A stretch of 64,000 nucleotides of DNA. Origin: Bacteroidales bacterium (GTDB taxonomy: Bacteria; Bacteroidota; Bacteroidia; Bacteroidales; F082). Shown piece by piece: positions 13,421-56,342 of the stretch. Below the pieces are notes generated by a model. The model was not told the DNA's origin and made no database searches. It saw nothing but the letters and a program-made list of their open reading frames with translations. The translations under genes and the position numbers were made by a program. The DNA is taken from assembly GCA_017549805.1 (NCBI GenBank), contig JAFYNJ010000003.1:62001-126000 (forward strand). The letters are read 5' to 3'. Numbering within the stretch: the stretch's first letter is position 1; the number at the start of each line of letters is the position of its first letter.

Positions 13421-13456
13421 ACTTCTTACTTCTTACTTCTGTCTTCTAAATTCTAA
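13421..13456 (+). repeat. Heptad-period array in the nfeD leader
   Basis: ACTTCTT ACTTCTT ACTTCTG TCTTCTA AATTCTA: five 7-bp units between the -7 element and the nfeD ATG. The leader RNA therefore consists almost wholly of the repeat. Confidence 0.7.
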
Positions 13457-13460
13457 AACC

Positions 13461-13901
13461 ATGCAAGCTTACCTGATTTGGCTTATTGCCGCTCTCGCAT
13501 TGATTATTTTTGAAATCTTTTCCGCCACCTTTGGTGCCATCTGCTTTGCCATCGGAGCGGGCTTCTCGGCGCTGGCTGCCGGTTTGGGTGCCAACCTGAC
13601 CTGGCAAATCGTCGTCTTTGCCGTCGTATCGTTGCTGACTTTCATTTTCCTGCGCCCCTTCATGCTGAAGATCTTGGACAGGAAGTCGAAGGATGTGAAG
13701 ACCAATGCCGATGCTTTGGTGGGTCGCAAGGCGATCGTCTCGGAGCGTATCGATGCCGCCCAACACACTGGTCGCGTTGCCGTGGATGGCGACGACTGGA
13801 AAGCCGTTTCCGTTGATGGTTCCATTATTGAAAAAGGTGATGAGGTCGAGATTGTAAAACTTGACAGCATCATTTTGACCGTGAGGAAAACGGAAAACTG
13901 A
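13461..13901 (+). CDS. NfeD-like membrane protein (YbbK type)
   Basis: 146 residues from the ATG at 13461; the frame is open further upstream, but that part is the repeat-rich leader. Two or three hydrophobic segments fill residues 1-70 (LIWLIAALALIIFEIFSATF, then VVFAVVSLLTFIFL). A soluble OB-fold beta-barrel follows (about 90-140: LVGRKAIVSERI ... VAVDGDDWKAVS ... GDEVEIVKLDS). This is the NfeD short form, which works with SPFH proteins in membrane microdomains; the SPFH gene is next. The last codons (TVRKTEN) are part of a 7-bp repeat array. Confidence 0.88.
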   Translation: MQAYLIWLIAALALIIFEIFSATFGAICFAIGAGFSALAAGLGANLTWQIVVFAVVSLLTFIFLRPFMLKILDRKSKDVKTNADALVGRKAIVSERIDAAQHTGRVAVDGDDWKAVSVDGSIIEKGDEVEIVKLDSIILTVRKTEN

Positions 13902-13955
13902 AAACGGAGAACGGAAAACTTCTTACTTCTTGCTTCTGACTTCTAAATTCTAAAA
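13884..13955 (+). repeat. Long heptad-period array between nfeD and the SPFH gene
   Basis: Ten units in 7-bp register: GGAAAAC, GGAAAAC, TGAAAAC, GGAGAAC, GGAAAAC, TTCTTAC, TTCTTGC, TTCTGAC, TTCTAAA, TTCTAAA. The unit changes halfway from a purine-rich to a TTCT type, but the period holds. The array encodes the last residues of NfeD, contains its stop and reaches almost to the next ATG. Confidence 0.75.
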
Positions 13956-13957
13956 AT

Positions 13958-14914
13958 ATGAGCGCATTAAACATCGTATTAACTGTCTTGGTCGTCCTCG
14001 TGGTCATCTATATCTTAAGAGGCATCAAAATCGTCTCCCAGTCGGAGACTTTGATTGTTGAACGTCTCGGTAAATACAACCGCACGCTCAACGCTGGCAT
14101 CAACGTCATCCTGCCCATCATTGAGAAGGCCAAGGAAACCATCGCCCGCCGTCAGGACGGTCGCCTGATCGCCACCTCGCGCATCGACATGCGTGAGCAG
14201 GTGTACGACTTCGACAAGCAGAGCGTAATCACCAAGGACAACGTCATGACCGAGATCAATGCCTTGCTGTATTTCCAGATTGTCGATCCCATGAAGGCCG
14301 TCTATGAGATCCAGAACCTGCCCGTCGCCATCGAAAAGCTGACCCAGACTACCCTCCGTAACGTGGTGGGTGAGATGGAACTCGACGAGACGCTGACTTC
14401 GCGCGATACCATCAACTCGAAGCTGCGCAACGTGCTCGACGATGCCACCAACAAGTGGGGTGTGAAGGTGAACCGCGTGGAGCTGCAGGACATCACGCCG
14501 CCCGAGAGCATCCGCCGCACCATGGAACTCCAGATGCAGGCCGAGCGTAACCGTCGTGCCGAGATCCTGAAGGCAGAAGGCGAGAAGCAGGCCCAAATCC
14601 TGAACTCCGAAGGTGAGAAACAGGCCGAGATCAACGCCGCCGAGGCCGACAAGCAGGCCAACATCCTCAAGGCCGAGGGTGAGGCGCGCGCCAAGATCCT
14701 CCAGGCCGAAGCCGAAGCCACCGCCATCCGCAACATCACCGAAGCGGTTTCCAGCGGTGGCGCCGATCCGGTCAACTACCTGCTGGCGGTGAAATATGTG
14801 GAGGCCTTGAAGGAGATTGCCTCTGGTCAGCAGAACAAGACCGTGTATCTGCCTTACGAGGCCACCAACATGCTGGGCTCCATCGGCGGAATCAAAGACT
14901 TATTCCAGAAATAA
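13958..14914 (+). CDS. qmcA: SPFH-domain stomatin-like protein (QmcA/YbbK-partner type)
   Basis: 318 residues. One N-terminal membrane anchor (IVLTVLVVLVVIYILRGI), then an SPFH/band-7 domain (about 25-200, SETLIVERLGKYNRTLNAGIN ... REQVYDFDKQSVIT). A long charged coiled coil follows (about 200-265) with repeated EKQAQIL, EKQAEIN, DKQANIL, EARAKIL heptads, and a C-terminal conserved SSGGADPVNYLLAVKYVEALK. The family oligomerises into membrane rings and is usually paired with NfeD, as here, suggesting a role in membrane quality control. No SD sequence is seen; the leader is the 7-bp repeat array. Confidence 0.92.
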   Translation: MSALNIVLTVLVVLVVIYILRGIKIVSQSETLIVERLGKYNRTLNAGINVILPIIEKAKETIARRQDGRLIATSRIDMREQVYDFDKQSVITKDNVMTEINALLYFQIVDPMKAVYEIQNLPVAIEKLTQTTLRNVVGEMELDETLTSRDTINSKLRNVLDDATNKWGVKVNRVELQDITPPESIRRTMELQMQAERNRRAEILKAEGEKQAQILNSEGEKQAEINAAEADKQANILKAEGEARAKILQAEAEATAIRNITEAVSSGGADPVNYLLAVKYVEALKEIASGQQNKTVYLPYEATNMLGSIGGIKDLFQK

Positions 14915-14934
14915 TGTTGTTAGGGCGTCTTTTC

Positions 14935-15010
14935 TATAAAGCTATCATCCGCCAAGGCGGATGGCTTTAACAAAAAGGTCCAATAATTATTCGCACCCCG
15001 TTAGGGGTGC
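14935..15010 (+). repeat. TATAGAGCTA-type hairpin, copy 4, and a second hairpin
   Basis: This is the first part of a 367-bp gene-free stretch (14915-15281). TATAAAGCTATCATCCGCC with AAGGCGGAT (14935-14962) is the same element as copy 1 in the other orientation. A second hairpin, GCACCCC-GTTA-GGGGTGC, is at 14993-15010. Both lie just after the SPFH gene. Confidence 0.7.
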
Positions 15011-15024
15011 TCCATTGGTAAAAA

Positions 15025-15079
15025 ATGACAATTTGTCATAATAATTTGTAATAATTGCTTATAAATCAGACAAATTGTC
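15025..15079. promoter_or_regulatory. Twin GACAA-n-TTGTC palindromes
   Basis: ATGACAA-T-TTGTCAT (15025-15039) and GACAA-A-TTGTC (15069-15079) are two copies of the same dyad. Their centres are 42 bp apart, about four helical turns, so a dimeric repressor could bind both on one face. They could also pair with each other as a long stem. They lie upstream of the small heat-shock gene but before a terminator, so the gene they control is unclear. Confidence 0.4.
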
Positions 15080-15092
15080 ATAAAATATCATT

Positions 15093-15119
15093 AAAGCGGC
15101 TTGAAAAGGCCGCTTTTTT
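15093..15119 (+). terminator. Rho-independent terminator
   Basis: AAAGCGGC-loop-GCCGCTTT followed by further T residues. It would end transcription coming from the nfeD-SPFH operon and separates it from hsp20. Confidence 0.8.
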
Positions 15120-15142
15120 GTTTTGGCTCGCTATTTGACAAA

Positions 15143-15247
15143 CGTCATTGCGAGCGAAACGAAGTGAAGCGAAGCAATCCAACATGACGCAACTTAGATG
15201 GCTCAAGTTGGATTGCCACACTCGCCAAAGGCTCGCTCGCAATGACG
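15143..15247. repeat. 105-bp GCAATGACG-type inverted repeat in the hsp20 leader
   Basis: Two 41-bp arms (15143-15183 and 15207-15247) begin and end with CGTCATTGCGAGCG / CGCTCGCAATGACG and pair imperfectly in the middle; the ends and the inner CAATCCAAC parts match exactly. A smaller CAACTT/AAGTTG hairpin forms the loop. Similar CATTGCGAGCGAAGCGAAGCAATC elements are dispersed in many bacterial genomes. It ends 34 bp before the hsp20 start codon, so it probably lies in the mRNA leader. Confidence 0.85.
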
Positions 15248-15281
15248 AAAAAAACAACTTAAAAAATAGGAGACCAAAATT

Positions 15282-15707
15282 ATGTATCTTACTCGTAGAA
15301 CTCAGGATTTCATTCCTACCTTATTCAATGAACTGATGAACATGGACACCGTGTCCTATTCAGAACCGAAGATGAACATCATCGAAAACAAGGAAAACTA
15401 CCTCATCCAGTATTCAGTGCCTGGCCTGAAGAAGGAAGACCTGAAGATTTCCATCGATGCCGAAGGCAACCTGGTGGTGGAGATGAGCAAAGAGAACAAC
15501 CACAAGGACGACAAGAAGGACAATGGCGTTCGTTACCTGCGTCGCGAGTTCACCTCCGAGCAGTTCCGCAACACCTTGGTGCTTCCTGAAGACATCCACC
15601 GCAACCAGATCTCGGCCAAGGTCGAGAATGGCATCCTCGAAGTCACCTTGCCAAGGGTGACCGTCGAAGAGAAGAAGGCGCTGGTGCAGAACATTGAAGT
15701 GCAATAG
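15282..15707 (+). CDS. Small heat-shock protein, Hsp20/alpha-crystallin family
   Basis: 141 residues, typical for a bacterial sHSP. The N-terminal arm (TQDFIPTLFNELMNMD) is followed by the alpha-crystallin domain (about 35-130): NIIENKENYLIQYSVPGLKK, VEMSKENN, and NGILEVTLPR with the usual A-x-x-x-N-G-[IV]-L signature (AKVENGILEVTLP). It holds unfolded proteins in oligomers without ATP. A clear SD-like AGGAGA lies 8 bp before the ATG, unusual for this window. The leader contains a 105-bp hairpin; the promoter must lie in or before that repeat because only 34 bp remain after it. Confidence 0.95.
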   Translation: MYLTRRTQDFIPTLFNELMNMDTVSYSEPKMNIIENKENYLIQYSVPGLKKEDLKISIDAEGNLVVEMSKENNHKDDKKDNGVRYLRREFTSEQFRNTLVLPEDIHRNQISAKVENGILEVTLPRVTVEEKKALVQNIEVQ

Positions 15708-15742
15708 TGAGAAGTTAGAAGTAAGAAGCAAGAAGCAAGAAG
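15708..15742 (+). repeat. Heptad-period array after hsp20
   Basis: TGAGAAG TTAGAAG TAAGAAG CAAGAAG CAAGAAG: five 7-bp units starting directly at the base after the TAG stop and running into the terminator stem. Confidence 0.75.
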
Positions 15743-15772
15743 CCGCTGGGCGTTAGCCTGGCGGCTTTTTTT
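15740..15772 (+). terminator. Terminator of hsp20
   Basis: AAGCCGC-loop-GCGGCTT followed by a run of T. The left arm is made from the last repeat unit (AAGAAG) of the heptad array. Confidence 0.85.
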
Positions 15773-18579: not shown

Positions 18580-18701
18580 ATCGATGTTGCTTTAGGTTTG
18601 AAAAAAAATATGATTTCCGAACAAGATGTAAAAATACAATTATTATACCAAACACCAAAAATACTTTAAAAAGAAAAGGAGGCCGACCTTTAGTCCAGCC
18701 C

Positions 18702-18732
18702 CCTTCTTACTTCTTACTTCTTGCTTCTATTA
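18702..18732. repeat. Heptad-period array after the M16 peptidase gene
   Basis: CTTCTTA CTTCTTA CTTCTTG CTTCTAT: 7-bp units of the TTCT type. On the minus strand they begin at the M16 stop codon. Confidence 0.7.
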
Positions 18733-21591
18733 TTCTTTAATAATTTGCTTATACTTAAGCTTGGTGACCTTGCCATACTTGCCAAGATCCTTGGCTTTGA
18801 CGCTCTTCGGACCCGACATCATGATAATCACTGGGCGGTCCTTGATCATGCGGTTGTAGAAGCTTTCCACGTCCTTGAATTCGGCCTTGCGGATAATCTC
18901 GGATGTCTCGGCGCGTGGATCCTGTTTGTAACCTTTCTTCAACCAATACTGGACAGTGAGTGGCTTGTTGCGGAAGGTGACATAGTTGCTGGCTCTCGAC
19001 TTCAGGAGGGCTTCCTTCGAGGCATTGAATTTCTCAATGCGTTCGGGCATGTCCTTGATCAAACCGCTGAAGGCGTCGATGCCGTCGAGGGTCTTATCGC
19101 CCTGGGTGCCCAAGAAACCGTATAGCAAACCAGGCTTGCGCTCCAGATAGTCGTAGTCGTAGTTGGCGTAGGCAGTGTAACCCAAGGAACGGAACTCGCG
19201 GATTTCCTGGAACACGATGGAGTACATGTCGGTGCCGAAATACTTGCTGAACAGGCTGGCCATGGCTTCATCCTCAAGGCTCAGCTTCTCACCGGGCACA
19301 TGGAACCAGATATTGCTTTGGCGGAACTTCTTGTTGGAGGCGAAGAACACCTGGGGCTCGGTAAACTGTGTTTCAAGCCTGAAAGACTCTGTCCTGTGGA
19401 GTGGTTTCAACGGGAGGATGCGGTGGGCCTTAATCGACTGAACCAGCACATCTGGATATTGGTTGCCGCTGAAGGTGACATAGCCGTCATATTTCAGGGG
19501 TTCGGCCACTTCGGCCAGCAGCTCGTTGCCGCTGCGTTTCGACCATTCCTTGAGGCTGACGGTATTCAGATAGATGGATTTCTTTCCGTAGAGGGCATAT
19601 TCCTTTACGGCACGAGCCCAAGTAGAGGCATCGTCCTTACGGGTTTGGATGTCTATCTTTTCCCCATCGACAAGAACGGCAATCTGGCTCTCGTCGTTGG
19701 AGGGATGGTAGAGCTTCTGATAGCAGAGTTCCAGCAGCCGTTCCAGGTCTTTCTCGAAGCCGGTGACGGTCACGACATACTCATTGTCGTCGGAGTGGGC
19801 ATAAATGCTGGCTCCCATCTTTTGGAGTTCCAGGGCGAATTCCTGATAAGGCATGTCCTCGGTGCCTTGCAGCGACTTGTAGCTGGAAGCCCTCGACAGG
19901 TCGGGATCGTCGAGCAGACCGTAGTTGAAGTGGAACTTCAGCTCGAAGATGTCGTTGGCGGTGTTGATGGCTGAATAGAGCTTGAATCCTTCGCTGATGT
20001 CGGTGATCTTGACGTCTTCGCCGAACTTGATGACCTGCGGGGTGACTTCAGGCACTTCCTCGGCCTCGATCATCTTGGCGAAGTCTGACTTCATGTTGGT
20101 GTTCTTGGCCTCCAGCGGTTTCCAGTTGGGTTTCTCCACCTTGTCCTTGTCGGGGAAGCCCATCTTGGAACGGACATCCAGGTAGTCGTTGCCGAAGTAT
20201 TTGTTGGCGATGGCCACCACCTCGTCCTTCGTGATGGTCTTGATGCGCTCCGTCTCGGCGAGGAACTCCTCGTAGGTTTGGCCGGTGCTCTCCATCTCGA
20301 GGAAGAGGTTGGCCAGCTTGTAGAGATCCTCGGTAGCGCGGATGCGTCCCATCAGCATGTCCATGCGAACGGCTTCGAACAGCTCGTCGCTGAACTCGCC
20401 GCGCTTCAGCTGGTCGAGGCATTCAAAGACCAAGGCTTCGGCTTCCTCGTGCGACTGGCCGATCAACTTGGGGATAATCAACATCAGGTTGGCGCCATGG
20501 TCCTCGAGTGACAAGGGCATGAGCATGGCACCCATCAACTTGTTTTCAAGCGTCAGCTTGTCGGCCAGACCGGTCTCGCCATTGAAGAAGATGCTGCATG
20601 CCATGGAGAGCGGAATCATGTCGGGGTCGGAGTTCTTGATGCCGGGGAAGATGAGCGCGCCCATCTTCACGGGCGTCAGATGCACTTCCTTGACGGTGGG
20701 ACCGTTAAACTTGGGCAGGGTATAGGTGGGCTGCTTGGGCAGCTCGCCGCTACGCCAGGTGCCGAACTTCTCGGCAATCATGGGCTCGATCTCCTCGGTG
20801 TTGAAGTCGCCGACCAGGATCAAGGTCATGTTGTTGGCCACATAGTAGGTGTTGTAGAACTCGCGCATCTTGGCGGGCTGGGGGTTCTTCAAGTGCTCGG
20901 TGTAGCCGATGACGGGACGGCCGTAGGGATGCTCGCCAAAGGTTTCCTTGAACATATATTCTTGGAAGCCGTTGATCGGGCTGTCGCCATACATGTTCTT
21001 CTCCTCATATACGGCTTCCAGCTCGCTCTGGAACAGGCGGAACACGGGGTTGCGGAAGCGTTCCACATACACGTCCATCCATTTGGAAAGCTGGTTTGAC
21101 GGGAAGAGGTTGTAATACATGGTCATATCGTAGGAGGTGCCGGCGTTCAGGCTTTTGCCGCCCATCTGGGTGAGGATTACGTCCACCTCGTTGGGGATGG
21201 CGTAGTCGGTGGAGGCGAGCGACAGCTCGTTGATCTTCATTTGGATGGCGTTGCGAGCCGCTGGGTCGGTGGTCGCGTGAAGCTTGTCGTACATCAGGCT
21301 GATGCTGTCGAGATACACCTTTTCTTTCTCCCAGTTGATGGTGCCGATGCGGTCGGTGCCCTTGAACATGATGTGCTCGAAGTAGTGGGCCATGCCAGTG
21401 GCATCCAAAGGATCGTTCTTGCTGCCGGCGTGGACATACACGGCGCCATAGATCTCAGGTTGGTGATGGTCTTCGCAAAGCACGACCTTCAAGCCGTTGT
21501 CGAGGTGATAGGTTTTGGTTTTTAGGCCCGTTTGCGCGGAAACCATACCGCAGAACAGCAGGGCAATGAGGATGAAGAGTGTTTTTTTCAT
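18730..21591 (-). CDS. M16-family zinc peptidase (pitrilysin/insulinase type, two-half)
   Basis: 953 residues, with a signal peptide (MKKTLFILIALLFCGMVSAQ). The inverted zinc motif HYFEH is at 69-73 with the distal Glu in ELEAVYEEKN about 75 residues on. Residues 1-480 form the active half; 500-953 form a second, inactive half (FNYGLLDDP ... HVPGEKLSLEDEAM). The clam-shell architecture is that of PqqL and pitrilysin, and Bacteroidota versions are periplasmic. They degrade short peptides; the target is unknown. It lies downstream of the M28 peptidase gene on the same strand, 36 bp apart, so the two may form an operon. Confidence 0.92.
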   Translation of the reverse strand: MKKTLFILIALLFCGMVSAQTGLKTKTYHLDNGLKVVLCEDHHQPEIYGAVYVHAGSKNDPLDATGMAHYFEHIMFKGTDRIGTINWEKEKVYLDSISLMYDKLHATTDPAARNAIQMKINELSLASTDYAIPNEVDVILTQMGGKSLNAGTSYDMTMYYNLFPSNQLSKWMDVYVERFRNPVFRLFQSELEAVYEEKNMYGDSPINGFQEYMFKETFGEHPYGRPVIGYTEHLKNPQPAKMREFYNTYYVANNMTLILVGDFNTEEIEPMIAEKFGTWRSGELPKQPTYTLPKFNGPTVKEVHLTPVKMGALIFPGIKNSDPDMIPLSMACSIFFNGETGLADKLTLENKLMGAMLMPLSLEDHGANLMLIIPKLIGQSHEEAEALVFECLDQLKRGEFSDELFEAVRMDMLMGRIRATEDLYKLANLFLEMESTGQTYEEFLAETERIKTITKDEVVAIANKYFGNDYLDVRSKMGFPDKDKVEKPNWKPLEAKNTNMKSDFAKMIEAEEVPEVTPQVIKFGEDVKITDISEGFKLYSAINTANDIFELKFHFNYGLLDDPDLSRASSYKSLQGTEDMPYQEFALELQKMGASIYAHSDDNEYVVTVTGFEKDLERLLELCYQKLYHPSNDESQIAVLVDGEKIDIQTRKDDASTWARAVKEYALYGKKSIYLNTVSLKEWSKRSGNELLAEVAEPLKYDGYVTFSGNQYPDVLVQSIKAHRILPLKPLHRTESFRLETQFTEPQVFFASNKKFRQSNIWFHVPGEKLSLEDEAMASLFSKYFGTDMYSIVFQEIREFRSLGYTAYANYDYDYLERKPGLLYGFLGTQGDKTLDGIDAFSGLIKDMPERIEKFNASKEALLKSRASNYVTFRNKPLTVQYWLKKGYKQDPRAETSEIIRKAEFKDVESFYNRMIKDRPVIIMMSGPKSVKAKDLGKYGKVTKLKYKQIIKE

Positions 21592-21606
21592 TGATAATTG
21601 GTATTA

Positions 21607-21627
21607 ATTGAATAACTGAATAACTAA
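21607..21627. repeat. Octad-period array between the M28 and M16 genes
   Basis: TTGAATAACTGAATAACTAA has GAATAACT in an 8-bp step. It lies just after the M28 stop codon on the minus strand. Confidence 0.5.
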
Positions 21628-23072: not shown

Positions 23073-23136
23073 TATAGAGCTAGCATCCCTTGCGGGATGC
23101 GGATGGTTTTCATCCGCATCCGTAGGATGCTAGATA
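23073..23136. repeat. Composite TATAGAGCTA-type repeat, copy 5
   Basis: TATAGAGCTAGCATCCC with GCGGGATGC (23073-23100) is followed by GGATGG-TTTT-CATCC and an inverted second half, GCATCC-GTA-GGATGC then TAGATAT (to about 23136). The two halves face each other. On the minus strand the element fills the space between the GntR stop and the M28 start. Confidence 0.75.
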
Positions 23137-26012: not shown

Positions 26013-27104
26013 TTAAAAAAAATTCTTCTTACTTCTTACTTCTTTCTTCTTTCTTCTTTCTTCTAACTTCTGATAATGGCACATTAAAATGCCATCAGAA
26101 TCCTTTCTATGCAGGTGCATAGCGCCACCGAGGCAGTTTTTATAGACTTTGCAATCCTTGCAAATGCCAGTCTTCATCCAACTGCGGTCGCGGAAGATTT
26201 GGAAGCGGTTCTCCCAGATGTCGAGGAAGTCGTCCTGATAGATGTTGCCTTGGACGAAGCGGCGGTCGATGTTGGGGCAGGCGGAGATGGAGCCATCGAC
26301 CAAGATGGATCCGATGGTGATGCCGGCGCGGCAGAAGTAGTACCAGTCGCGCACTTTGCGCTCGTAAGGCCCCACGTATGCTTCGCAGCTGAACTTGGCG
26401 TCGATCTTGCCTTCCTTTCGGGTGGCGACGATGAAGTCCATCAATTGACGGAACTGCTCGTTACTGAGTTGCAGGTTAGGGTCGTTGGCGGCACGACCGA
26501 TGGGCTCAATGGTGAAGAAACGCCAAGCCTTTACATGATGCTCGATGAGCAACCGTTTCAGTTCATCCAGTTCGCCCAGGTTCATGGGACTGACACAGGT
26601 GACGATGTCGTAGGCGGGGAGCTTTTCCTCATTGGCCACCAAGTCGATGGCGCGCAAGGCGTGGTCGAAGCTGCCTTGGCGTTTTCGGAAGGCATCGTGG
26701 GTCTCGCGCAACCCATCCAGACTGAAGGTGACGCTGCACAGTCCGGCCTTCATCAGCTCTTTGTGCCGCTCCTCGTCGTAGGCCCAGCCGTTGCTGACGA
26801 TGCCCCAGGGGAAGCCATGTTGCCGCAGCTGCCGACCGCAGTCGGTCAAATCCTTGCGTACCAAAGGCTCGCCACCGGTGATGACCACCAGGATGGAGTT
26901 GCGTTTGAACTTGGTTTCAAGGGGCTGGATGGCCTTCAGGAAATCCTCGAAGGGCATGTCCTTATACAAAGAAGAAACGGTGCAATCCGAACCGCAATGC
27001 ATGCAGTTCAAGTTACACCGTTGCGTACACTCCCAAAAAAGATAGTTCAGCTCGTGAAGCTGTGTCTCCTTCTTGCGGAAATAATTGTGGAAGGCCTGAA
27101 GCAT
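26013..27104 (-). CDS. Radical SAM/SPASM enzyme of the rSAM-lipoprotein pair
   Basis: 363 residues. The radical SAM cluster motif is C30-x3-C34-x2-C37 (ECTQRCNLNCMHC), with an additional Cys at 26. GGEPL follows at the usual place. The C-terminal SPASM-type auxiliary cluster site includes ISACPNIDRR, GICKDCKVYKNCLGG and MCHYQ. This is the layout of maturases that modify peptides (compare anSME, PqqE). The gene follows a tiny lipoprotein gene by 3 bp, the arrangement known in Bacteroidetes as TIGR04133 with TIGR04134. The modification is not known. The last 18 residues (Lys/Arg/Glu, ending SKKNFF) are encoded by a 7-bp repeat array and may be dispensable. Confidence 0.87.
   Translation of the reverse strand: MLQAFHNYFRKKETQLHELNYLFWECTQRCNLNCMHCGSDCTVSSLYKDMPFEDFLKAIQPLETKFKRNSILVVITGGEPLVRKDLTDCGRQLRQHGFPWGIVSNGWAYDEERHKELMKAGLCSVTFSLDGLRETHDAFRKRQGSFDHALRAIDLVANEEKLPAYDIVTCVSPMNLGELDELKRLLIEHHVKAWRFFTIEPIGRAANDPNLQLSNEQFRQLMDFIVATRKEGKIDAKFSCEAYVGPYERKVRDWYYFCRAGITIGSILVDGSISACPNIDRRFVQGNIYQDDFLDIWENRFQIFRDRSWMKTGICKDCKVYKNCLGGAMHLHRKDSDGILMCHYQKLEERRKKKEVRSKKNFF
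26022..26072. repeat. Heptad-period array encoding the C-terminus of the radical SAM enzyme
   Basis: TTCTTAC TTCTTAC TTCTTTC TTCTTTC TTCTTTC TTCTAAC TTCTGAT: seven units in strict 7-bp register. Read on the minus strand they encode the basic tail of the radical SAM protein; the stop follows directly. Confidence 0.8.
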
Positions 27105-30205: not shown

Positions 30206-32278
30206 TTATTTTTCGATTCTGATACGGGCATCAACGGCGGTGACGTAGCGAGGATTGCCCAACAATGGGTTGAGGTCCATCTCGGCGATCTCGGGAGCGG
30301 CCTGTACCAAGGCGCTCACACGGGCCACTTGGTCGGCATAAAGGTCGATATTCACGCCTTCCTGACCGCGCACGCCTTGCAGGATCTTGTATCCCTTGAG
30401 TTGCTTGAGCATTTCCTTGGCTTCGTCGGCAGTGATGGGGGCGAGGGCGGATTGAACATCCTTGAGCACCTCGATGAAGATGCCGCCCAAACCGAAGAAG
30501 ATCTGATGACCGAACTTCGGATCCTTGATGGCGCCGATATACACGTCGATACCGTCAAGCATTGGATACATCTCCACGGCGTAGGTCTCGGGGATGACGA
30601 TAAGGCGGTCGAACTCCTTGGCCACGGTGTCGAGGTCTTTCACGCCGAGGGTCACGCCGCCTACGTCGCTCTTGTGGAGCGGTCCGACGACCTTCATCAC
30701 AAGCGGTACGTCCTTGGAGCAGCCCACTTCCTTGGCGAAGGCAAGGGCGTCTTCCTTCTTGCTTACCTCAACGCTCTTCTTGCGGCTGATGCCAGCGGCG
30801 TCGAGCAGCTCGTTGTAGTCGGCGATCTCCAGATAGCCTGACTTGCAGCGGTCGATGGTGCGGCGAATGCGGGCCACGTCGATCTTCGGCAGCTCCACAT
30901 GCTCGGGCTGGGGTTTCGGAGTGTTATAGACTTTGCAGAGTGCATTGCCCAATACGCATTCCTCGGGGAAGTTGATGCGTCCCTTGGCGATGAAATCCTC
31001 GATCTCGTCCTTCACGTTGATGATGGAAGGCAACACGGGGAAGATGGGCTTCTTGCAGGTCTTCATCTTCTCATCGAGCAGGTCATAGACCTCCTTGTTG
31101 CTGAAGAGTCCGGGAGAGCCGAAAATGACCACGGAGAAGTCGATCTCATCGTATTCGTTCTCGACAGTGTCGATGATATAGCCCAGTTGTTCGGCGGTGC
31201 CGGTGGCGAGGAAGTCGATGGGGTTGCCCACCGAGGAGCCTCCGAAGAGTTTAGCGAGCAGGGCAGGGCTGGCCGGATGATCCTTCAGCGAAGGGACTTC
31301 CATGCCGCCGTTCGACAGAACGTCGGTGAGCATCACGGCGGGACCGCCGGCATGGGTGATGACGGCGCAGCGCTTACCTTTGATTTCAGGATGCATGAAG
31401 ACACCGCACACGGTAGTCAGCTCCTGGCGGTTATGGCAACGCACAATGCCTGCCTTGCGGAACAGGGCATCCACGGCGGCGTCGTTGGTAGCCAAAGCAC
31501 CGGTATGGGATGAAGCGGCACGCGATCCTGCTGCGGAGCCACCGCTCTTGATGGCGGCGATATGGCAACCTTTGTTGATGAGGCTGCGGCTATGCTTGAG
31601 CAGGCGTTGCGGGTCGCCGATCTTCTCCATGTAAAGCATGATGACATGCGATGACTTCTCAGGCTCGAAGGTCTCGTCGAGGTGTTCCAGCACATCCTCG
31701 ATGCCCAACTGGGCGCTGTTGCCCACTGCCCACACGCTGTTGAACTTCAATCCGTTGCTCATGCCGTATTCCTTGATAAACACGGCGGTGGCACCTGAAC
31801 CGGTGATGAAATCAACGCCCTTGGGATCCAACGGTGGGATGGGGGTGTCGAAACAACCGGCGTAGTTCACATTGAGGAAGCCGGTGCAGTTGGGGCCAAT
31901 CAAAGAGCCGCCCACGCTGTTGATGGTGTCGGCGATATGCTTCTCGATCTCGGCACCCTCGTGGCTCTCTTCCGAGAAGCCGGCGCTGACGATGATGAAG
32001 CCCTTGCAGCCTTTTTGTAACGCCAGCACGTCCACCGTCTGGGCGCAGAACTTGGCGGCAATGCAGAGGATGGCGCAGTCCACCTGCGGCAGGTCGTCCA
32101 CCTTGGCGTAGCACTTCACGCCTTGCACTTCGGTTTCTTTGGGATTCACGGCGTAAATCTGGCCTTTGAAGGGGCTCTCCAAGAGGTTTTTCAGCGATTT
32201 GCCGCCGGGTTTATGTACATCACTGGAAGCACCGCAAATAACGATGCTTTTGGGATTCAGTAATTCTTTTGCAATCAT
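30206..32278 (-). CDS. acdA: ADP-forming acyl/acetyl-CoA synthetase (fused alpha-beta)
   Basis: 690 residues. The N-terminal part is a CoA-binding domain (PKSIVICGASSDVHKPGGK), followed by two succinyl-CoA-synthetase-like flavodoxin domains with the phospho-His in SSHTGALATND (about 257). The C-terminal part is an ATP-grasp domain (about 470-690; KEVGCSKDVPLVMKVVGP ... MDLNPLLGN). The enzyme converts acetyl- or other acyl-CoA plus ADP and phosphate to the acid, CoA and ATP, saving energy in fermentation. The single-chain form is full length. It has no close TAnnTTTG promoter that I can see. Confidence 0.92.
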   Translation of the reverse strand: MIAKELLNPKSIVICGASSDVHKPGGKSLKNLLESPFKGQIYAVNPKETEVQGVKCYAKVDDLPQVDCAILCIAAKFCAQTVDVLALQKGCKGFIIVSAGFSEESHEGAEIEKHIADTINSVGGSLIGPNCTGFLNVNYAGCFDTPIPPLDPKGVDFITGSGATAVFIKEYGMSNGLKFNSVWAVGNSAQLGIEDVLEHLDETFEPEKSSHVIMLYMEKIGDPQRLLKHSRSLINKGCHIAAIKSGGSAAGSRAASSHTGALATNDAAVDALFRKAGIVRCHNRQELTTVCGVFMHPEIKGKRCAVITHAGGPAVMLTDVLSNGGMEVPSLKDHPASPALLAKLFGGSSVGNPIDFLATGTAEQLGYIIDTVENEYDEIDFSVVIFGSPGLFSNKEVYDLLDEKMKTCKKPIFPVLPSIINVKDEIEDFIAKGRINFPEECVLGNALCKVYNTPKPQPEHVELPKIDVARIRRTIDRCKSGYLEIADYNELLDAAGISRKKSVEVSKKEDALAFAKEVGCSKDVPLVMKVVGPLHKSDVGGVTLGVKDLDTVAKEFDRLIVIPETYAVEMYPMLDGIDVYIGAIKDPKFGHQIFFGLGGIFIEVLKDVQSALAPITADEAKEMLKQLKGYKILQGVRGQEGVNIDLYADQVARVSALVQAAPEIAEMDLNPLLGNPRYVTAVDARIRIEK

Positions 32279-32289: not shown

Positions 32290-32325
32290 CTAACTATTAT
32301 CTTTTATCTCTTATCTTTTATCTTT
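32290..32325. repeat. Heptad-period array at the end of the Nudix gene
   Basis: TATCTTT TATCTCT TATCTTT TATCTTT: units of 7 bp. On the minus strand it encodes the last Nudix residues (LKDKR), holds the TAA stop and runs up to the acyl-CoA synthetase gene. Confidence 0.7.
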
Positions 32326-32823
32326 CAAATGAAGCGATGTCAGTCGCTCTTCACAGTCGAGTAGCAGCTGGTAATGGATCTTGTTGAACTTCCCTTCGTC
32401 GCAGAGCTTCTCAATCTCCTCGCGGCTCATCCATTGTACCGATTCCACTTCTTCCTTTTGAAGTCGCAGCATCTCGATGGGGACATTGCTCCGAAGCATG
32501 TAGAGGAGGGTGAACTTATAGCCGTATCGCCTGATCCTCAACAGCTTGAGCTCGCTTTTGGTGACGGAGAGCCCCAACTCCTCCTTGAGTTCGCGCAACA
32601 TGGAGATGGTGAAGTCCATCTCGCCCGACTTGACATGCCCGGCCGTGGTAGCATAATAGCCGCCCTTCGATTCGGCCACCTTTTGGATGAGGTACTTGCC
32701 CTCGTTGTTATGGATGAATACGGCCACGATGGGGATCATAAGTCCCTGAGGGACAAGCTGTCCGCGTTCCACGGTTTGACCAGTGGGCTTCAAGTCGCTG
32801 TCGTACAAATCCAATAATTCCAT
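32311..32823 (-). CDS. Nudix hydrolase (IDI-like subgroup)
   Basis: 170 residues. The fold is clear (YDSDLKPTGQTVERGQLVPQG ... AVFIHNNEGKYLIQK, split by me). The Nudix box GHVKSGEMDFTISMLRELKE then ELGL has all key Glu residues, but there are eight residues between the first E (68) and RE (77-78), one more than the usual seven. The N-terminus is like that of isopentenyl-diphosphate isomerase-related Nudix proteins such as YfcD. The substrate, a nucleoside diphosphate linked to some X, is unknown. It is divergent from the MFS gene. Confidence 0.85.
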   Translation of the reverse strand: MELLDLYDSDLKPTGQTVERGQLVPQGLMIPIVAVFIHNNEGKYLIQKVAESKGGYYATTAGHVKSGEMDFTISMLRELKEELGLSVTKSELKLLRIRRYGYKFTLLYMLRSNVPIEMLRLQKEEVESVQWMSREEIEKLCDEGKFNKIHYQLLLDCEERLTSLHLKDKR

Positions 32824-35828: not shown

Positions 35829-35840
35829 AGTTAGTTGGGA

Positions 35841-35906
35841 GTTGTTCAGTTGTTCAGTTGTTCAGTTGTTCACCTTTCACCTCTCACCTTTCACCTTTCA
35901 CCTTTA
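35841..35906. repeat. Mixed octad and heptad array between trmH and eamA
   Basis: First GTTGTTCA in 8-bp steps (about four units, 35841-35871), then CTTTCAC, CTCTCAC, CTTTCAC, CTTTCAC, CTTTACC in 7-bp steps to 35906. On the minus strand it encodes the last residues of the EamA protein (KVKGER), contains its stop and fills the gap to trmH. Confidence 0.75.
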
Positions 35907-36774
35907 CCTGCGACAATACCAGACCAATAATGACAACCACAATGCCGATCATTTTGAACAGCGTGATCTCCTCATGGATCAGGAAATAGCTAAAGCATGC
36001 AGTGAATATCGGGATGGTGTTGGTATAGACATTGGATCGGGCAACGCCCAGTTTGCTAACAGAGTAGGTGTAGAGCACATACGACAGGGAGCTGGCCAGT
36101 ACCGCCAATAGCAGCAGAGGCACAAGGTAATTGCTCACAGGCAGCAGGTTGCCCAGCGAGTGGCGTTCGAGCAGCAGCACAAACGGGATAAAATACAGGA
36201 TGCCGATGGAGTTGACCGTGCCCACCACGGTAAGGGCATTGTATTTGTCGGCGAGTTTTTTCAGCGCCACGCTGTAAAACACTGCCACCACCACTGCCAT
36301 GAAGATAAACAGCAATCCCGATACCGAGGCGGTCAGTTCCAAATTCTTGTTGAAAAGCATGAGCAACACCCCGAGGAAGGAGACAATCAGCCCAACGATG
36401 TTCATCGCGCTGATACGTTCCTTCAGCATGAAGAAAGCCGCGATGGGTGCAAATAGCGGAATGGTGGCCACGATGGCCGAGCAAATGGTGGGTGAGACCC
36501 GTAGCAGGCCGTAGCTCTCGCCGATGAAATAAAGGAAGGGCTCAAAAAAAGCGGCAAGGAAAAACAGCTTGATGTCGCTGCGCTCAATCTTCTCGGTCTT
36601 CTTGAGCAAGACCATCGCCAGGAAGAGGATGGCACTGGATAGGATGAGCCGCAAAAGGATGGTCGTGCCGGGTTTCAGGTATTGGAATACTTGTGTTGAC
36701 CACACGTACGATCCTCCCCAAATAATCATGGCGATTAGGGCGGTAACATGAGGCAGAAATCCTTTGCTTTTCAT
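35884..36774 (-). CDS. EamA/DMT-family transporter
   Basis: 296 residues from the ATG at 36774; a start at 36816 would lie upstream of the -7 element at 36793-36801 and is not used. Ten hydrophobic segments in two homologous EamA halves (VTALIAMIIWGGSYVWSTQ in the first; LLFIFMAVVVAVFYSVALKK in the second). The family exports or imports small metabolites; the substrate is unknown. The C-terminal KVKGER comes from the 7-bp repeat array. Confidence 0.88.
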   Translation of the reverse strand: MKSKGFLPHVTALIAMIIWGGSYVWSTQVFQYLKPGTTILLRLILSSAILFLAMVLLKKTEKIERSDIKLFFLAAFFEPFLYFIGESYGLLRVSPTICSAIVATIPLFAPIAAFFMLKERISAMNIVGLIVSFLGVLLMLFNKNLELTASVSGLLFIFMAVVVAVFYSVALKKLADKYNALTVVGTVNSIGILYFIPFVLLLERHSLGNLLPVSNYLVPLLLLAVLASSLSYVLYTYSVSKLGVARSNVYTNTIPIFTACFSYFLIHEEITLFKMIGIVVVIIGLVLSQVKVKGER

Positions 36775-39621: not shown

Positions 39622-40956
39622 ATGTTTGAAGGTTTAAGCGAAAAACTAGAACGCTCGTTCAAGATCCTGAAAGGACAAGGATATATTACTGAAGTCAACG
39701 TGGCCGACACCATGAAGGAGATCCGCCGTGCGCTGCTCGACGCGGACGTCAGCTACAAGATTGCCAAGGATGTCACCAACAATATCAAGGAGAAGGCGTT
39801 GGGCCAGCAAATCCTGACTTCGGTGAAGCCGGGCGACATGATGGTGAAGATCGTCCATGATGAACTTGCCGAACTCATGGGTGGGCAAGAGGTTGAAATC
39901 AACCTGAAGGGACAACCTGCCATCATCCTGATTGCAGGTCTGCAAGGTTCCGGTAAGACCACTTTCTCGGCCAAGTTGGCCAACTATCTGAAACGCAAGA
40001 AGAGCAAGCAGGTGCTGCTGGTGGCGGGCGACGTGTATCGTCCGGCTGCTATCGACCAGTTGAAGGTCCTGGGCCAGCAGGTCGAAGTGGAGGTCTATAG
40101 CGAAGACGGCAACAAGAACCCCGTGGAGATTGCCCAACACGCCATCGAGCATGCCAAGGCGCAGAACAAGAGCGTGGTCATCATCGATACCGCTGGCCGT
40201 TTGGCTGTTGACGAGGAGATGATGAACGAGATCGCTCGCATCAAGGAGACCGTGCATCCGCATGAGACCCTGTTTGTGGTGGATGCCATGACGGGTCAGG
40301 ATGCCGTCAACACGGCCAAGGCCTTTAACGACCGTCTCGACTTCGACGGCGTGGTGCTCACCAAGTTGGACGGCGACACCCGTGGCGGTGCCGCTCTCAC
40401 CATCCGTACCGTGGTGGAGAAGCCTATCAAGTTCGTCGGTATCGGCGAGAAGATGGACGCGTTGGATGTGTTCTATCCGAAACGTATGGCCGACCGTATC
40501 CTCGGCATGGGTGACATTGTCTCCCTGGTGGAACGTGCCCAAGAACAGTTCGACGAGGAAGAGGCTCGCAAGCTGCAACGCAAACTGGCCAAGAACGAAT
40601 TCAACTACAACGACTTCCTCAAGCAGATCCAGCAGATCAAGAAGATGGGCAACATCAAGGACTTGGCCAGCATGATCCCGGGCATGGACAAAGCCATGAA
40701 GGGCGAGGAGATTGACGATGACGCCTTCAAGAGCATCGAGGCCATCATCTATAGCATGACGCCGGCAGAACGCGAGAATCCGAACCTGCTCAATGGCACC
40801 CGCCGCAAGCGTATCGCCATGGGTAGCGGCACCTCCATCGTCGAGGTGAACCGCCTGGTCAAGCAATTCGAGGAAACTGCCAAAATGATGCGCATGATGA
40901 CCACCGGCGGTGGCAAGAAGATCATGCGGATGGCGAATGCGATGAGGAGAAGATGA
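39622..40956 (+). CDS. ffh: Signal recognition particle protein Ffh
   Basis: 444 residues from the ATG at 39622 (MFEGLSEKLERSFKILKGQG). N domain about 1-90, G domain with P-loop GLQGSGKTT (about 108-116), DTAGR, TKLDGDTRGG, then the Met-rich M domain (about 300-444; MIPGMDKAMKG ... KMMRMMTTGGGKKIMRM) that binds signal sequences and 4.5S RNA. It sends nascent membrane and secretory proteins to FtsY. The end (RRR) and stop form the first unit of a 7-bp repeat. Confidence 0.97.
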   Translation: MFEGLSEKLERSFKILKGQGYITEVNVADTMKEIRRALLDADVSYKIAKDVTNNIKEKALGQQILTSVKPGDMMVKIVHDELAELMGGQEVEINLKGQPAIILIAGLQGSGKTTFSAKLANYLKRKKSKQVLLVAGDVYRPAAIDQLKVLGQQVEVEVYSEDGNKNPVEIAQHAIEHAKAQNKSVVIIDTAGRLAVDEEMMNEIARIKETVHPHETLFVVDAMTGQDAVNTAKAFNDRLDFDGVVLTKLDGDTRGGAALTIRTVVEKPIKFVGIGEKMDALDVFYPKRMADRILGMGDIVSLVERAQEQFDEEEARKLQRKLAKNEFNYNDFLKQIQQIKKMGNIKDLASMIPGMDKAMKGEEIDDDAFKSIEAIIYSMTPAERENPNLLNGTRRKRIAMGSGTSIVEVNRLVKQFEETAKMMRMMTTGGGKKIMRMANAMRRR

Positions 40957-40981
40957 AAGCTGAGAGGTGAAAGCTGAAAGT
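40954..40981 (+). repeat. Heptad-period array after ffh
   Basis: TGAAAGC TGAGAGG TGAAAGC TGAAAGT: four exact 7-bp units; the first TGA is the ffh stop codon. Confidence 0.75.
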
Positions 40982-53825: not shown

Positions 53826-55457
53826 TTAATCCTTGGCCAGGAACGGATACCCGTAGGCGGCAGCAGGAACGAAAGTGTTCTTGATGGCGCGTGGGCTGGT
53901 CCAGCGGATGAGGTTCCACAGGCCGCCGGCCTTGTCGTTGGTGCCGCTGGCGCGGGCGCCGCCGAAGGGCTGCATGCCGACCACAGCTCCCGTGGGCTTG
54001 TCGTTCACGTAGTAGTTGCCGGCTGCGTGGCGCAACTTGTCGTTGGCAATCTTCTGGGCCTTCATGCAGTTGCCGAAGAAGGCACCGGTGAGGGCGTAAG
54101 GCGAGCTCTGGTCGCAAACATCCAGCATCTCCTCGAACTTGTTGTCGTCGTAAACGTAAATGGTGATGATGGGTCCGAAGATCTCCTGAACCATGCTTTC
54201 GTAATCCGGCACCTTGGCGAGGATGACGGTAGGTTCCACAAAGTAACCGACGCTCTTGTCGCAGTTGCCGCCGAAGACGATCTCGGCGTCCTTGCTGGCC
54301 TTGGCGCGGTCGATGTAGCCCTTGCAGTTGTCGAATGAGGCCTCGTCGATGACGGCGTTGACGTAGTTGGTGAAGTCTTTCACGTCACCCATCTTGATGG
54401 TGCTCATCATGTCGCCCACGCGGTGCTGAACATCGTTCCACATCGAAGCAGGGATGTAAGCACGCGAAGCGGCGGAGCACTTCTGGCCTTGGTATTCGAA
54501 GGCGCCACGGACGATGGCGACGGCCACCTCTTGCGGGTCGGCGCTGTTGTGGACGAAGATGAAGTCCTTGCCGCCGGTCTCACCGATGAGGCGAGGATAC
54601 GACTTGTAGAGGTCGAGGTTCTGGCCGGTGGTCTTCCACAGGCTCTTGAAGGTGGCGGTGCTGCCGGTGAAGTGGATGGCGTTGAAGTTCTTGTCCTTCA
54701 GGGCCACACTGCTGATCAAGCTGCCCTTGCCAGGCAGGAAGTTGACGACACCGTTCGGAAGGCCGGCTTCCATGAAGATGCGCATGTCGGTGTAGTTCGA
54801 CAGCAGGGCGGTCGTCGAGGGCTTCCAGATGGTGGTGTTACCCATCAGGGCGGGAGTCATGTTCAGGTTGGAGGCGATGGACGAGAAGTTGAAAGGCGTG
54901 ATGGCGAACACGAAGCCTTCCAAGGGACGGTATTCCACGCGGTTCAGCTGGTCGTTGGCCGAAGCGGGCTGCTCGGCGTAGAGCTTGCTGGCGTAGTAGT
55001 TGTTGTAACGGAAGAAGTCGATGGTCTCGCAGGCACTGTCGATCTCGGCTTGGAAGCAGTTCTTCGATTGGCCGAGCATGGTGGCGGCGTTGATGCGGGC
55101 GCGGTATTTGGTGGCCAACATCTCGCCAATGCGTGCCATGATGGCGGCGCGCTCGTCCCAAGGCGTGTTCTCCCAGTCGTGCTTGGCGGCTTGGGCGGCG
55201 TCGATGGCCATGCGGACTTCCTTCTCGCCGACCTTGTGGTAGCGGGCGATGACGTGCTTGTGGTCATGAGGCATCACCACTTCACCCATGTCGCCGGTGC
55301 GGACTTCCTGGCCGTTGATGATGGCGGGGATTTCGACGACTTCGTTCGATTGTCTTTCCAGTTCCTTTTGGAGCTCGATGCGCTCCGGGCTGCCCGGACG
55401 GTAAGCCTTTACCGGCTCGTTGTCAGGCTTCGCAAAAGTAATCAATGCGTTGTTCAT
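53826..55457 (-). CDS. pruA: L-glutamate gamma-semialdehyde (P5C) dehydrogenase
   Basis: 543 residues, the stand-alone form. NAD pocket HFTGSTATFKSLW, catalytic Glu in IGETGGKDF (about 290) and nucleophile Cys327 in GQKCSAASRAYIP; the C-terminal MQPFGGARASGTNDKAGG is diagnostic of the P5CDH class. It oxidises glutamate semialdehyde to glutamate in proline breakdown. No proline dehydrogenase gene is seen. An exact -7 element TAAATTTGC lies at 55507 to 55499. Confidence 0.95.
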   Translation of the reverse strand: MNNALITFAKPDNEPVKAYRPGSPERIELQKELERQSNEVVEIPAIINGQEVRTGDMGEVVMPHDHKHVIARYHKVGEKEVRMAIDAAQAAKHDWENTPWDERAAIMARIGEMLATKYRARINAATMLGQSKNCFQAEIDSACETIDFFRYNNYYASKLYAEQPASANDQLNRVEYRPLEGFVFAITPFNFSSIASNLNMTPALMGNTTIWKPSTTALLSNYTDMRIFMEAGLPNGVVNFLPGKGSLISSVALKDKNFNAIHFTGSTATFKSLWKTTGQNLDLYKSYPRLIGETGGKDFIFVHNSADPQEVAVAIVRGAFEYQGQKCSAASRAYIPASMWNDVQHRVGDMMSTIKMGDVKDFTNYVNAVIDEASFDNCKGYIDRAKASKDAEIVFGGNCDKSVGYFVEPTVILAKVPDYESMVQEIFGPIITIYVYDDNKFEEMLDVCDQSSPYALTGAFFGNCMKAQKIANDKLRHAAGNYYVNDKPTGAVVGMQPFGGARASGTNDKAGGLWNLIRWTSPRAIKNTFVPAAAYGYPFLAKD

Positions 55458-55498
55458 GTTTTGTATTTAAAGATTTGTATTTTTTGAATTAAGCGAGC

Positions 55499-55507
55499 GC
55501 AAATTTA
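55499..55507 (-). promoter_or_regulatory. -7 promoter element of pruA
   Basis: TAAATTTGC on the minus strand, 41 bp before the start at 55457, matching TAnnTTTG. Confidence 0.5.
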
Positions 55508-55537
55508 TAAAAAACTTACGATAACTTGTTGCGAAGA

Positions 55538-56257
55538 TCAAACAATTCTCTTGATGACCTGCAACCGATGCGTATGTTCGTTCCGTTCCTTGTTGAAGAT
55601 GCCCGTCTGGTCGAGGTAATCGATGCGGACCTGGCCTGAGGCGTGAAGGATACGCTCATTGTCGAGCATCATGCCCACATGGACGATGTGGCCGTCTTCG
55701 TTGCCGAAAAAGGCTAAGTCGCCAGGCTGGATCTCGGGCAGGAAATACACCAACTCGCCTTCGAGGACTTGCTGTGAAGCGTCGCGGGGGAGGAGCTTGC
55801 CTGCCGCACGGGCACAGAGTTGGACGAAACCGCTGCAGTCGATGCCTGACACCGTCCTGCCGCCCCAGAGATAGGGCGCTCCCAGCATTTTTTGGGCGAA
55901 TTCCAGCATCAGAGCAGGGGAGAAGTGGTCGGGTATGGTCATGGTGCCGGCCACGGGTTCGTCAAGCAAGGTACCCAAGGAAAGTTGAAGGCCTTGGTAG
56001 TCCAAAATAGGCCGATCCACCACAAAGCGTTCTTTCCCCTTAAGCGTCAAAAAATCTTGCTCGCTGATGGCATGATGCTGGATGCCTTGAATCCACCCCT
56101 CATACTGGTCTTCGTCCGACTTGATCAAGTACCATCCTGGCTTTTCATCCAGCACTTCATAAAGCTCATTGAAAAGCAGTTGGCTTACCATCTCGCTGGT
56201 GTGGCTCGGCTCCTTACGGATAGGGATGACCGATAGCTTGCAAATTCCGCAGTTCAT
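55538..56257 (-). CDS. NlpC/P60 (C40) cell-wall peptidase with SH3 domains
   Basis: 239 residues from the ATG at 56257 (MNCGICKLSVIPIRKEPSHT), the N-terminus of the cytosolic Bacteroidetes form; an upstream ATG at 56302 would place the start before the -7 element. Two SH3-like domains (about 8-110) precede the C40 domain. The catalytic Cys is in GIDCSGFVQ (about 151), the His in HIVHVGMML and the third polar residue near ERILHAS. Relatives cut the gamma-D-Glu-diamino-acid bond of recycled peptidoglycan peptides. No signal peptide is present, so it acts in the cytosol. Confidence 0.9.
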   Translation of the reverse strand: MNCGICKLSVIPIRKEPSHTSEMVSQLLFNELYEVLDEKPGWYLIKSDEDQYEGWIQGIQHHAISEQDFLTLKGKERFVVDRPILDYQGLQLSLGTLLDEPVAGTMTIPDHFSPALMLEFAQKMLGAPYLWGGRTVSGIDCSGFVQLCARAAGKLLPRDASQQVLEGELVYFLPEIQPGDLAFFGNEDGHIVHVGMMLDNERILHASGQVRIDYLDQTGIFNKERNEHTHRLQVIKRIV

Positions 56258-56278
56258 AGTCTTGACAGTTTCGATAGG

Positions 56279-56342
56279 GCAAAAATAAAAAACAACTTTC
56301 AATTTTCAATTTTCAACTTTCAATTTTTTTCACTATCTTTGC
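56279..56342. promoter_or_regulatory. Divergent -7 pair with a heptad array in between
   Basis: Minus strand TATTTTTGC (56287 to 56279) faces the C40 gene; plus strand TATCTTTGC (56334-56342) faces pgpH. Between them CTTTCAA TTTTCAA TTTTCAA CTTTCAA TTTTTTT (about 56296-56330) is a 7-bp array, so here the repeat lies inside a divergent promoter region. Confidence 0.65.

Follow-up and report, generated by a model that had tools for sequence, protein, structure and literature searches.

Dispersed heptad repeats with a constant step and changing units at gene ends and within genes of a Bacteroidales genome

Why should the junctions between genes carry short tandem arrays that keep a step of 7 bp while the letters of the repeated unit change from site to site? 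The question is raised by a stretch of 64,000 nucleotides, here called the window, from a Bacteroidales bacterium (assembly GCA_017549805.1, contig JAFYNJ010000003.1; G000:C14:62001-126000 in our numbering), whose own genome, G000, comprises 2.73 Mb in 33 contigs. The arrays are members of the class of dispersed heptanucleotide tandem repeats (short tandemly repeated repetitive sequences, STRR, or heptamer simple sequence repeats), and we favor, with a probability of about 0.6, an explanation in which they form a fast-changing dispersed population of slippage-prone heptads that are copied, inverted and survive at tolerant sites.

The preference for this step is evident from autocorrelation. 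If a segment counts as an array when 12 or more matches out of 14 occur at lag 7, the window contains 10 compared to 0.2 expected from 20 local shuffles, with 2 segments at lag 8, 5 at lag 9 and 0-1 at lags 4-6 and 10-11. In a sample of 818 kb of the own genome, noncoding DNA harbors 88 lag-7 segments against 2.1 expected from 8 dinucleotide shuffles of noncoding DNA, a comparison that the earlier note on this DNA had set beforehand as its refuting check and whose outcome favors the note; the corresponding numbers for lag 8 are 14 and 1.25, and lags 4-6 and 9-13, close to chance, account for 0-6 segments each. The assembly contains duplicated contigs and contig ends (C8/C30, C13/C14 and C6/C14; listed contamination 7.58), and since the duplicated ends would inflate naive whole-genome counts, about 28 kb were dropped. 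The resulting set of 789 kb, which underlies our own-genome counts of polarity, arm pairing, copying, dialect and quadruplex potential, contains 118 lag-7 segments, from which we extrapolate to about 400 heptad arrays per whole genome. With 85 of these segments (a number whose shuffle expectation was computed only on the redundant 818-kb set) located in the noncoding part, 14% of the sequence by our gene calls, the arrays are over-represented outside of genes. The remaining 33 reside in called open reading frames (ORFs), defined as at least 65% inside an ORF of our home-made gene caller, which misses or misplaces some gene ends and some of whose calls may be wrong; a stricter gene filter retains 17 of 118. 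ORF segments at lags 6, 9 and 12 number 21-23 each, as expected for ordinary coding repeats with steps in multiples of three, and the other lags between 4 and 13 besides 7 yield 0-3. The earlier description of exact 7-bp units in 3-10 copies thus holds with respect to the step and not to exactness, as none of the 118 arrays is perfect, with a median length of 4.6 units.

Besides their step, the arrays share an orientation. We denote as R an arm on the purine- or G-rich strand and as Y its complement as read on the plus strand, with orientation assigned by G-C skew. On the basis of stricter gene calls, 48 of 54 classifiable arrays of the own genome and 27 of 32 such arrays from its relatives direct their G-rich strand away from the closest coding sequence (relatives being species representatives with one genome per species, mostly metagenome-assembled genomes, MAGs), and this outward rule is seen at both 3' and 5' gene ends. 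Outside the count are own arrays that span the gap (21), lie in ORFs (17), are more than 60 bp away from both genes (11), are located at stretch edges (10) or lack skew (5), with 7, 8, 2, 0 and 3 arrays in the same classes for the relatives. An outward G-rich strand implies that opposite neighbors read R-then-Y, and this order is found in 24 of 25 opposite neighbors within 200 bp by G-C skew and in 23 of 24 by purine content, in a tally that leaves out 8 same-direction neighbors. It is observed in 14/15 cases in the own genome, 2/2 in the genus, 1/1 in named outgroups and 7/7 in other Bacteroidota, where six of the seven pairs belong to genome G355, and in the single exception (L120) a further R-array comes after the Y-arm of one pair. 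The two arms also resemble each other, with 1.63 differences compared to 2.64 for shuffled arms (1/2000).

The arrays of the window, with their strand, are the following:

11207..11230, minus: weak GGAAAAC-family array, reading GTTTTCCGTTCTCCG on the plus strand, at the junction 11176/11245 and below the 12/14 threshold
13419..13460, R-strand minus: heptad array changing from TTCTTAC to TTCTAAA while approaching the start codon of an NfeD-like ORF
13884..13915, plus: R-array of GGAAAAC/TGAAAAC enclosing the stop codon of the upstream ORF (ending 13901)
13917..13954, minus: Y-array on the plus strand, ACTTCTT to TTCTAAA, separated by 3 bases from the ATG at 13958
15706..15745, plus: R-array of TTAGAAG/TAAGAAG immediately 3' of a stop codon and ahead of a hairpin that by eye resembles a terminator
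18701..18729, R-strand minus: array of GTAAGAA at the 3' end of ORF 18730-21591(-)
21603..21627, minus: 8-bp array of the AACTGAAT family
26022..26071, minus: array of TTCTTAC/TTCTTTC within the last codons of ORF 26013-27104(-)
32294..32327, minus: AGATAAA-family array between ORFs 30206-32278(-) and 32311-32823(-)
35838..35875, minus: 8-bp array of AGTTGTTC (reverse complement: AACTGAAC family), continuing straight into the 7-bp array at 35868
35868..35908, minus: heptad array with R-unit AGGTGAA at the 3' end of ORF 35884-36774(-)
40950..40980, plus: imperfect array of AAGCTGA spanning a stop codon
44479..44517, plus: imperfect array of AGAAGTC/AGAAGAA in a stop-start gap
56292..56327, minus: array of TTTTCAA, with R-unit TTGAAAA, located upstream of TATCTTTG in a junction of divergent genes

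Among the twelve 7-bp places listed in the earlier note, eight are strong (13419, 13884 with 13917/13933, 15706, 18701, 26022, 32294, 35868 and 56292), whereas those at 11207, 38880, 40954 and 44479 are weak or imperfect: Tandem Repeats Finder picks up the arrays at 40950 and 44479 with 79% and 66% matches, and 11207 and 38880 contain by eye two or three degenerate units. The two 8-bp sites of the note correspond to 21603 and 35838. The Y-array at 13917 is in phase with the R-array at 13884 and forms an R-to-Y pair with it, and, allowing up to 2 mismatches, a leader resembling 13917..13954 is found at 7 places of the own sample; the order of variants at 32294 recurs at 7 further loci of this sample with at most 1 mismatch. 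Units can provide the stop codon of the upstream gene or extend to the ATG of the neighbor. In ORF 26013-27104(-), three matching relatives align only up to residue 347 or 348 of 363. The sequence TATCTTTG near the 56292 array resembles the TAnnTTTG promoter element of Bacteroidota. The array at 11207 adjoins a TAGCATCCC..GGGATGC palindrome; 11180-11204 and 23078-23135 contain palindromic repeats of type AGCTAGCATCCC..GGGATGC, and by eye similar repeats reside inside mfd of G008, G033 and G060. Another large palindromic repeat, TCATTGCGAGCG..GAAGCAATCC plus complement, occupies 15143-15247. Proteins with type IX secretion system (T9SS) sorting domains are present among the window genes, and a plasmid search with one window gene gave no match. 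The host probably inhabits the ruminant gut: uncultured Bacteroidales sampled from ruminant stomachs account for several of its closest named records.

The units differ among sites as had been claimed, yet they belong to recurring purine-rich families, which in 93 arrays from the own and related genomes include TGAGAGT, TGAGAGG, TAAGAAG, TAAAAGA, TAGAATT, TAAGAAT and GGAAAAC on the purine strand. In contrast to these diverse heptads, 8-bp arrays are mostly of one family (AACTGAAC/AACTGAAT). Three candidate causes of unit composition or array formation were rejected. Selection for stop codons in the three frames is not supported on the purine strand, where 26 of 33 distinct units carry a stop compared to 22.7 from permuted letters (p 0.07); variants of this test are nominally above expectation for either strand (28 vs 24.2, p 0.03) and for the Y-strand (11 vs 6.6, p 0.02), and we do not build on them. 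Drift driven by transitions is likewise unsupported, with 197 transitions and 220 transversions among unit deviations. Finally, none of the 118 arrays contains four tracts of at least three guanines (four tracts of at least two are present in 29), so that the polarity observed here is independent of a quadruplex of that kind, and the persistence of step and polarity across such units speaks against quadruplexes as a general explanation.

The proposal that arrays are found almost only at gene ends does not hold, as illustrated by the 33 segments in ORFs and by arrays in frame within housekeeping genes. Genes scoring above their NCBIfam cut-off include ileS (two sites), sufS, mfd (two sites) and an S41 peptidase. 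Other array-bearing genes, with their best model below cut-off, resemble those of a biotin carboxylase-type protein, ApbE, CysQ and a glutamate synthase small subunit-like protein, and some further array-bearing ORF calls are short, score low and are possibly erroneous. When purine strand and sense strand coincide, translation evades the stop codons of the unit (mfd and ileS, by eye). Two opposite arms were read at three species-sites in sufS and five in ileS site 1, and 8 of 8 show the R-to-Y order; in sufS of G003 and G020 the two arrays share one direction, and the arrangement at mfd site 2 of G023 is ambiguous. At a looser threshold of 11/14, at which a few short runs may be chance, heptads are found in sufS at 8 of 25 loci, in ileS at 7 (site 1) and 8 (site 2) of 22, and in mfd at 5 (site 1) and 13 (site 2) of 19. 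Array-free species contain either a short loop or unrelated palindromic repeats in these places. Different species hold unrelated palindromic repeats in the segments of mfd (L299-L318), sufS (L201-L225) and ileS (L175-L196), including, by eye, pieces like the 15143-15247 palindrome in the sufS segment of G004 and G013, which suggests that the three segments generally tolerate repeat DNA. In an alignment with a PDB sequence, the array segment of SufS is located right before residues matching VLVTAMEHHSN, with one gap; a structure model of SufS intended for loop placement was discarded as too poor for use (mean predicted local distance difference test score 51.5). Caution is due with stretches such as STLNSQL or TENGK in these proteins, which represent translated repeat DNA.

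Orthologous sites often retain an array while its unit changes. The junction between the NfeD and SPFH genes is a gap of few bases in many members of the genus and carries arrays in closer ones, with CTCTTAA, CTTCTAA/CTCCTAA, TGAAAAC or CGGAAAA in relatives, where the array often contains the NfeD stop codon in several species (all by eye), and GGAAAAC followed by TTCTTAC in the own genome. At the junction 13362-13461, TTCTTAC is common to the own genome and G033, the latter with one additional unit, a difference between sister species where phase-variable contingency repeats would vary within one, and is replaced by AACTCCT in G013, AACTCTT in G061 and ATTCTTA in G022; in G035 no array is recognized by eye, and in G032 the genes are not adjacent. 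A comparable replacement is found in ileS site 2, whose units have switched in concert between G060 (GGAAAGT) and G022 (GGAAAAC) with retention of an ATG interruption, and which in G061 contains mixed units (by eye). In ileS site 1, the array continues in phase into the conserved FKL codons, which in the own genome, G033, G022 and G061 match the unit of the respective species (by eye). The view that period and position are conserved rather than sequence is therefore borne out at the orthologous sites examined and fails for the many relatives without an array there; at other junctions of the window the array is often missing in relatives, and the junction at 35868 is very short in three of four.

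The units also bear a signature of the species. In a comparison of five protein sites and two junctions (the latter from the own genome, G033, G013, G061 and G022, plus G008 and G060 at one), unit distances are 2.14 for different sites of the same species and 2.54 where both differ (2/2000 by permutation of labels within sites, which does not correct for species relatedness), with 2.16 for the same site in different species and 1.25 for two arms of one site. Counted as overlapping matches rather than arrays, GGAAAACGGAAAACGGA is found 70 times in G008, 53 in G022, 22 in G060, 15 in G000, 5 in G010 and 2 in G033, and in none of the other 20 of 26 genus genomes, with 4 matches of its reversed control, in G009 only. 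In the same 26 genomes, GGAAAGTGGAAAGTGGA is found 39 times in G060, 22 in G010, 7 in G022, twice each in four others and not in G000, with its reversed control matching five genomes. Finally, TTCTTACTTCTTAC is present in 9 of 60 genomes including our own, and its reversed control in five. Since reversed GGAAAGT is the AGGTGAA family, such controls, whose matches reach 23 in G026, 56 in G010, 41 in G004 and 12 in G000, do not provide a chance level. The density of arrays per 100 kb in the sampled relatives ranges from 16 in G022 to 0 in G035, G003 and G011 (20-38 kb each). Within the own genome, the shared order of variant units at unrelated loci points to copying: 84 arrays of at least 28 bp include 21 pairs with at least 28 bp and at least two distinct heptads in common, compared to a mean of 3.25 and a maximum of 6 in 12 shuffles of unit order. 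Unrelated flanks surround one order of 27 bp, AAAGATAAGAGATAAAAGATAAAAGTT, at 8 loci (5 exact matches and 3 with one mismatch), where an ATG follows immediately 3' in three and within 3 bases in two more.

Strong dominance of the step of 7 is shown within this genus and in individual genomes outside it, and not across the phylum. The pattern AGKTGAR was detected in 24 of 392 Bacteroidota genomes, including our own, and in 16 of 174 genera, in a survey whose control is weak, as the reversed pattern overlaps the same unit. Three further counts pool coding and noncoding DNA. In positive genomes, 400 kb of sequence chosen away from known arrays contain 31 segments at lag 7 and 6 at lag 8. A sampler of one genome per family (328 kb) contains 10 at lag 7, 5 of them in one genome, and 3, 6, 4 and 9 at lags 5, 6, 8 and 9. 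The loci of named outgroups (498 kb) contain 24 at lag 7 and 4, 18, 18 and 17 at lags 5, 6, 8 and 9. The densest arrays seen, with 23 segments in 40 kb, are those of G355:C1 (L291, L292), which belong to the families GACAGAT and GGATGTT with their complements; on the 3.15-Mb contig of this genome, successive arrays of two unit families are arranged in nested R..Y structures.

In the explanation that we favor, arrays would be born and resized by polymerase slippage with a strong preference for a 7-nt step. As slippage shifts whole units, it would fix the period while point changes spread through an array and the letters drift. The earlier note had held that slippage should give one consensus per family; because a fixed step with a drifting unit is what whole-unit slippage combined with point changes and copying predicts, this contrast is not compelling. 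On the nascent purine-rich strand, fold-back or quasipalindrome template switching, a mechanism that has been reported for E. coli and yeast, could generate the matching second arm and set the R-to-Y order, a proposal derived from the final sequence only, with which both arm matching and arm order would fit. Ectopic template switching or gene conversion would copy arrays between sites and thus create species dialects, and purifying selection would leave them in stop-start gaps, leaders and permissive segments of proteins. Several points weigh against this explanation. Slippage alone accounts neither for the preference of 7 over 6, 8 or 9 nor for the strand rule, so that the step and the polarity are the parts still needing a mechanism. 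Deviations from the unit lack a transition bias, and 7 of 19 R-to-Y pairs contain at least two differences between their arms. Site history weighs as much as dialect, given the similar distances for same site and same species, and the latter are uncorrected for relatedness. Beyond the genus, G355 supplies 23 of the 31 lag-7 segments of positive genomes, and in outgroup loci lag 7 is little above lag 8. In the comparison of species representatives, mostly MAGs, no mutation is seen in action. Finally, leaders of the same order in front of start codons could equally be kept by selection.

This last point leads to a reading in which arrays act as regulatory or translational elements, as leaders, stops or terminators that are bound by proteins or ribosomes and selected at gene ends. 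Same-order leaders are located shortly before a start codon at six of seven places (five ATG, one called GTG), with the seventh cut off by the end of the stretch, and the proximity of AAAGATAAGAGATAAAAGATAAAAGTT-type orders to ATG at five of their eight loci points in the same direction, as does the array at 13421, which lies between an ATG and an element that resembles the TAnnTTTG motif; translational regulation by TAACTGA repeats has been proposed in MacGregor 2015 (PMC4679880). The occurrence of arrays inside enzymes, orthologous junctions with replaced or absent units, and the patchy presence across the genus make such a role unlikely as a general explanation; at some sites it is possible, and not needed. 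A similarly improbable origin, to which we give slightly less credence, would be in palindromic elements of the Rickettsia palindromic element (RPE) or miniature inverted-repeat transposable element (MITE) type, moved by a transposase with heptads as their arms. R-to-Y inverted pairs, the in-frame presence in ORFs, for which RPEs set a precedent (PMC10969869), and the quite different palindromes of other species in sufS and mfd would be in line with it. However, neither core nor flank beyond the heptads is common to the recurring arrays inspected by eye that could define a family consensus of this kind, and in many arrays only one arm is detected.

The outward direction of the G- or purine-rich strand on both sides, the R-to-Y order in 24 of 25 pairs and the replacement of the native loop sequence of sufS (by eye) might alternatively reflect templated 3'-end addition, where a reverse transcriptase or similar polymerase would add purine-rich heptads to broken 3' ends, which are subsequently joined in R-to-Y order as in a fusion of telomeres. 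We regard this as distinctly improbable, since the many unit families in a genome would require many templates and since the arrays of ileS site 1 are in phase with native codons (by eye), which suggests local seeds. There is hardly any probability left for an artefact of assembly or binning: many of the genomes are MAGs and G000 contains the described duplications, but orthologous arrays differ among independent assemblies, are in frame within housekeeping genes and are found on the 3.15-Mb contig of G355.

The heptads described here share their appearance as dispersed short tandem heptanucleotides with the STRR that Mazel is said to have reported in 1990 for Calothrix and other cyanobacteria; phylum and units differ. 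RPEs, which according to PMC10969869 comprise palindromic families of about 150 bp in frame inside ORFs, have in-frame inverted repeats in common with our arrays, whose copies share only the 7-bp step and the strand order. MacGregor 2015 describes TAACTGA repeats in Beggiatoaceae, cyanobacteria and five Bacteroidetes, where they precede start codons and occupy intergenic DNA, with indels between two Cyanothece strains mostly in 7-nt increments and other heptamers in Gramella, Aequorivita and Elizabethkingia. There, a single unit is favored and related heptamers are rare in BOGUAY, whereas units are diverse in our case, with TAACTGA as consensus in 0 of 93 arrays and only a partial similarity of the 8-bp AACTGAAC family. 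A close parallel is provided by the GGGNATC repeats of Xanthomonas and Nostoc (Rehm 2015, PMC4692102), tandem 7-bp repeats that occur genome-wide and mostly in noncoding DNA. Their G-rich strand is the non-coding one up to 50 bp upstream of ORFs and the coding one within 50 bp of stops, and sister species mostly carry them between the same gene pairs with different length and sequence. The same text reports intragenic repeats and a preference for four units, mentions inverted repeats and the Calothrix heptanucleotides, notes that an over-representation of heptamers in many bacterial genomes described in 2007 was followed by little detailed work, and relays an earlier hypothesis in which the heptamer equals the DNA segment contacted by the polymerase, leading to 7-nt slippage. 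The outward rule of the G-strand is common to both systems; GGGNATC is one G-rich consensus, whereas our arrays comprise many AT- and purine-rich families without the potential for G3+ quadruplexes. Among the matches listed from open-licence literature, we found neither in-frame heptad arrays in housekeeping genes of Bacteroidales nor concerted replacement of units. Such in-frame arrays with species-specific units and the matched R-to-Y arms go beyond the description of GGGNATC repeats, and the replacement of units in place within ileS, sufS and mfd makes it possible to test for satellite-like concerted evolution in a bacterium. It is conceivable, though doubtful in our view, that several phyla share a hitherto undescribed type of DNA synthesis with a 7-nt step, which would place purine-rich strands at 3' ends, close them by fold-back and overwrite junctions and loops with the dialect of the species; if so, the outward G-strand rule in Bacteroidota, Xanthomonas and Nostoc would be the common footprint of one process.

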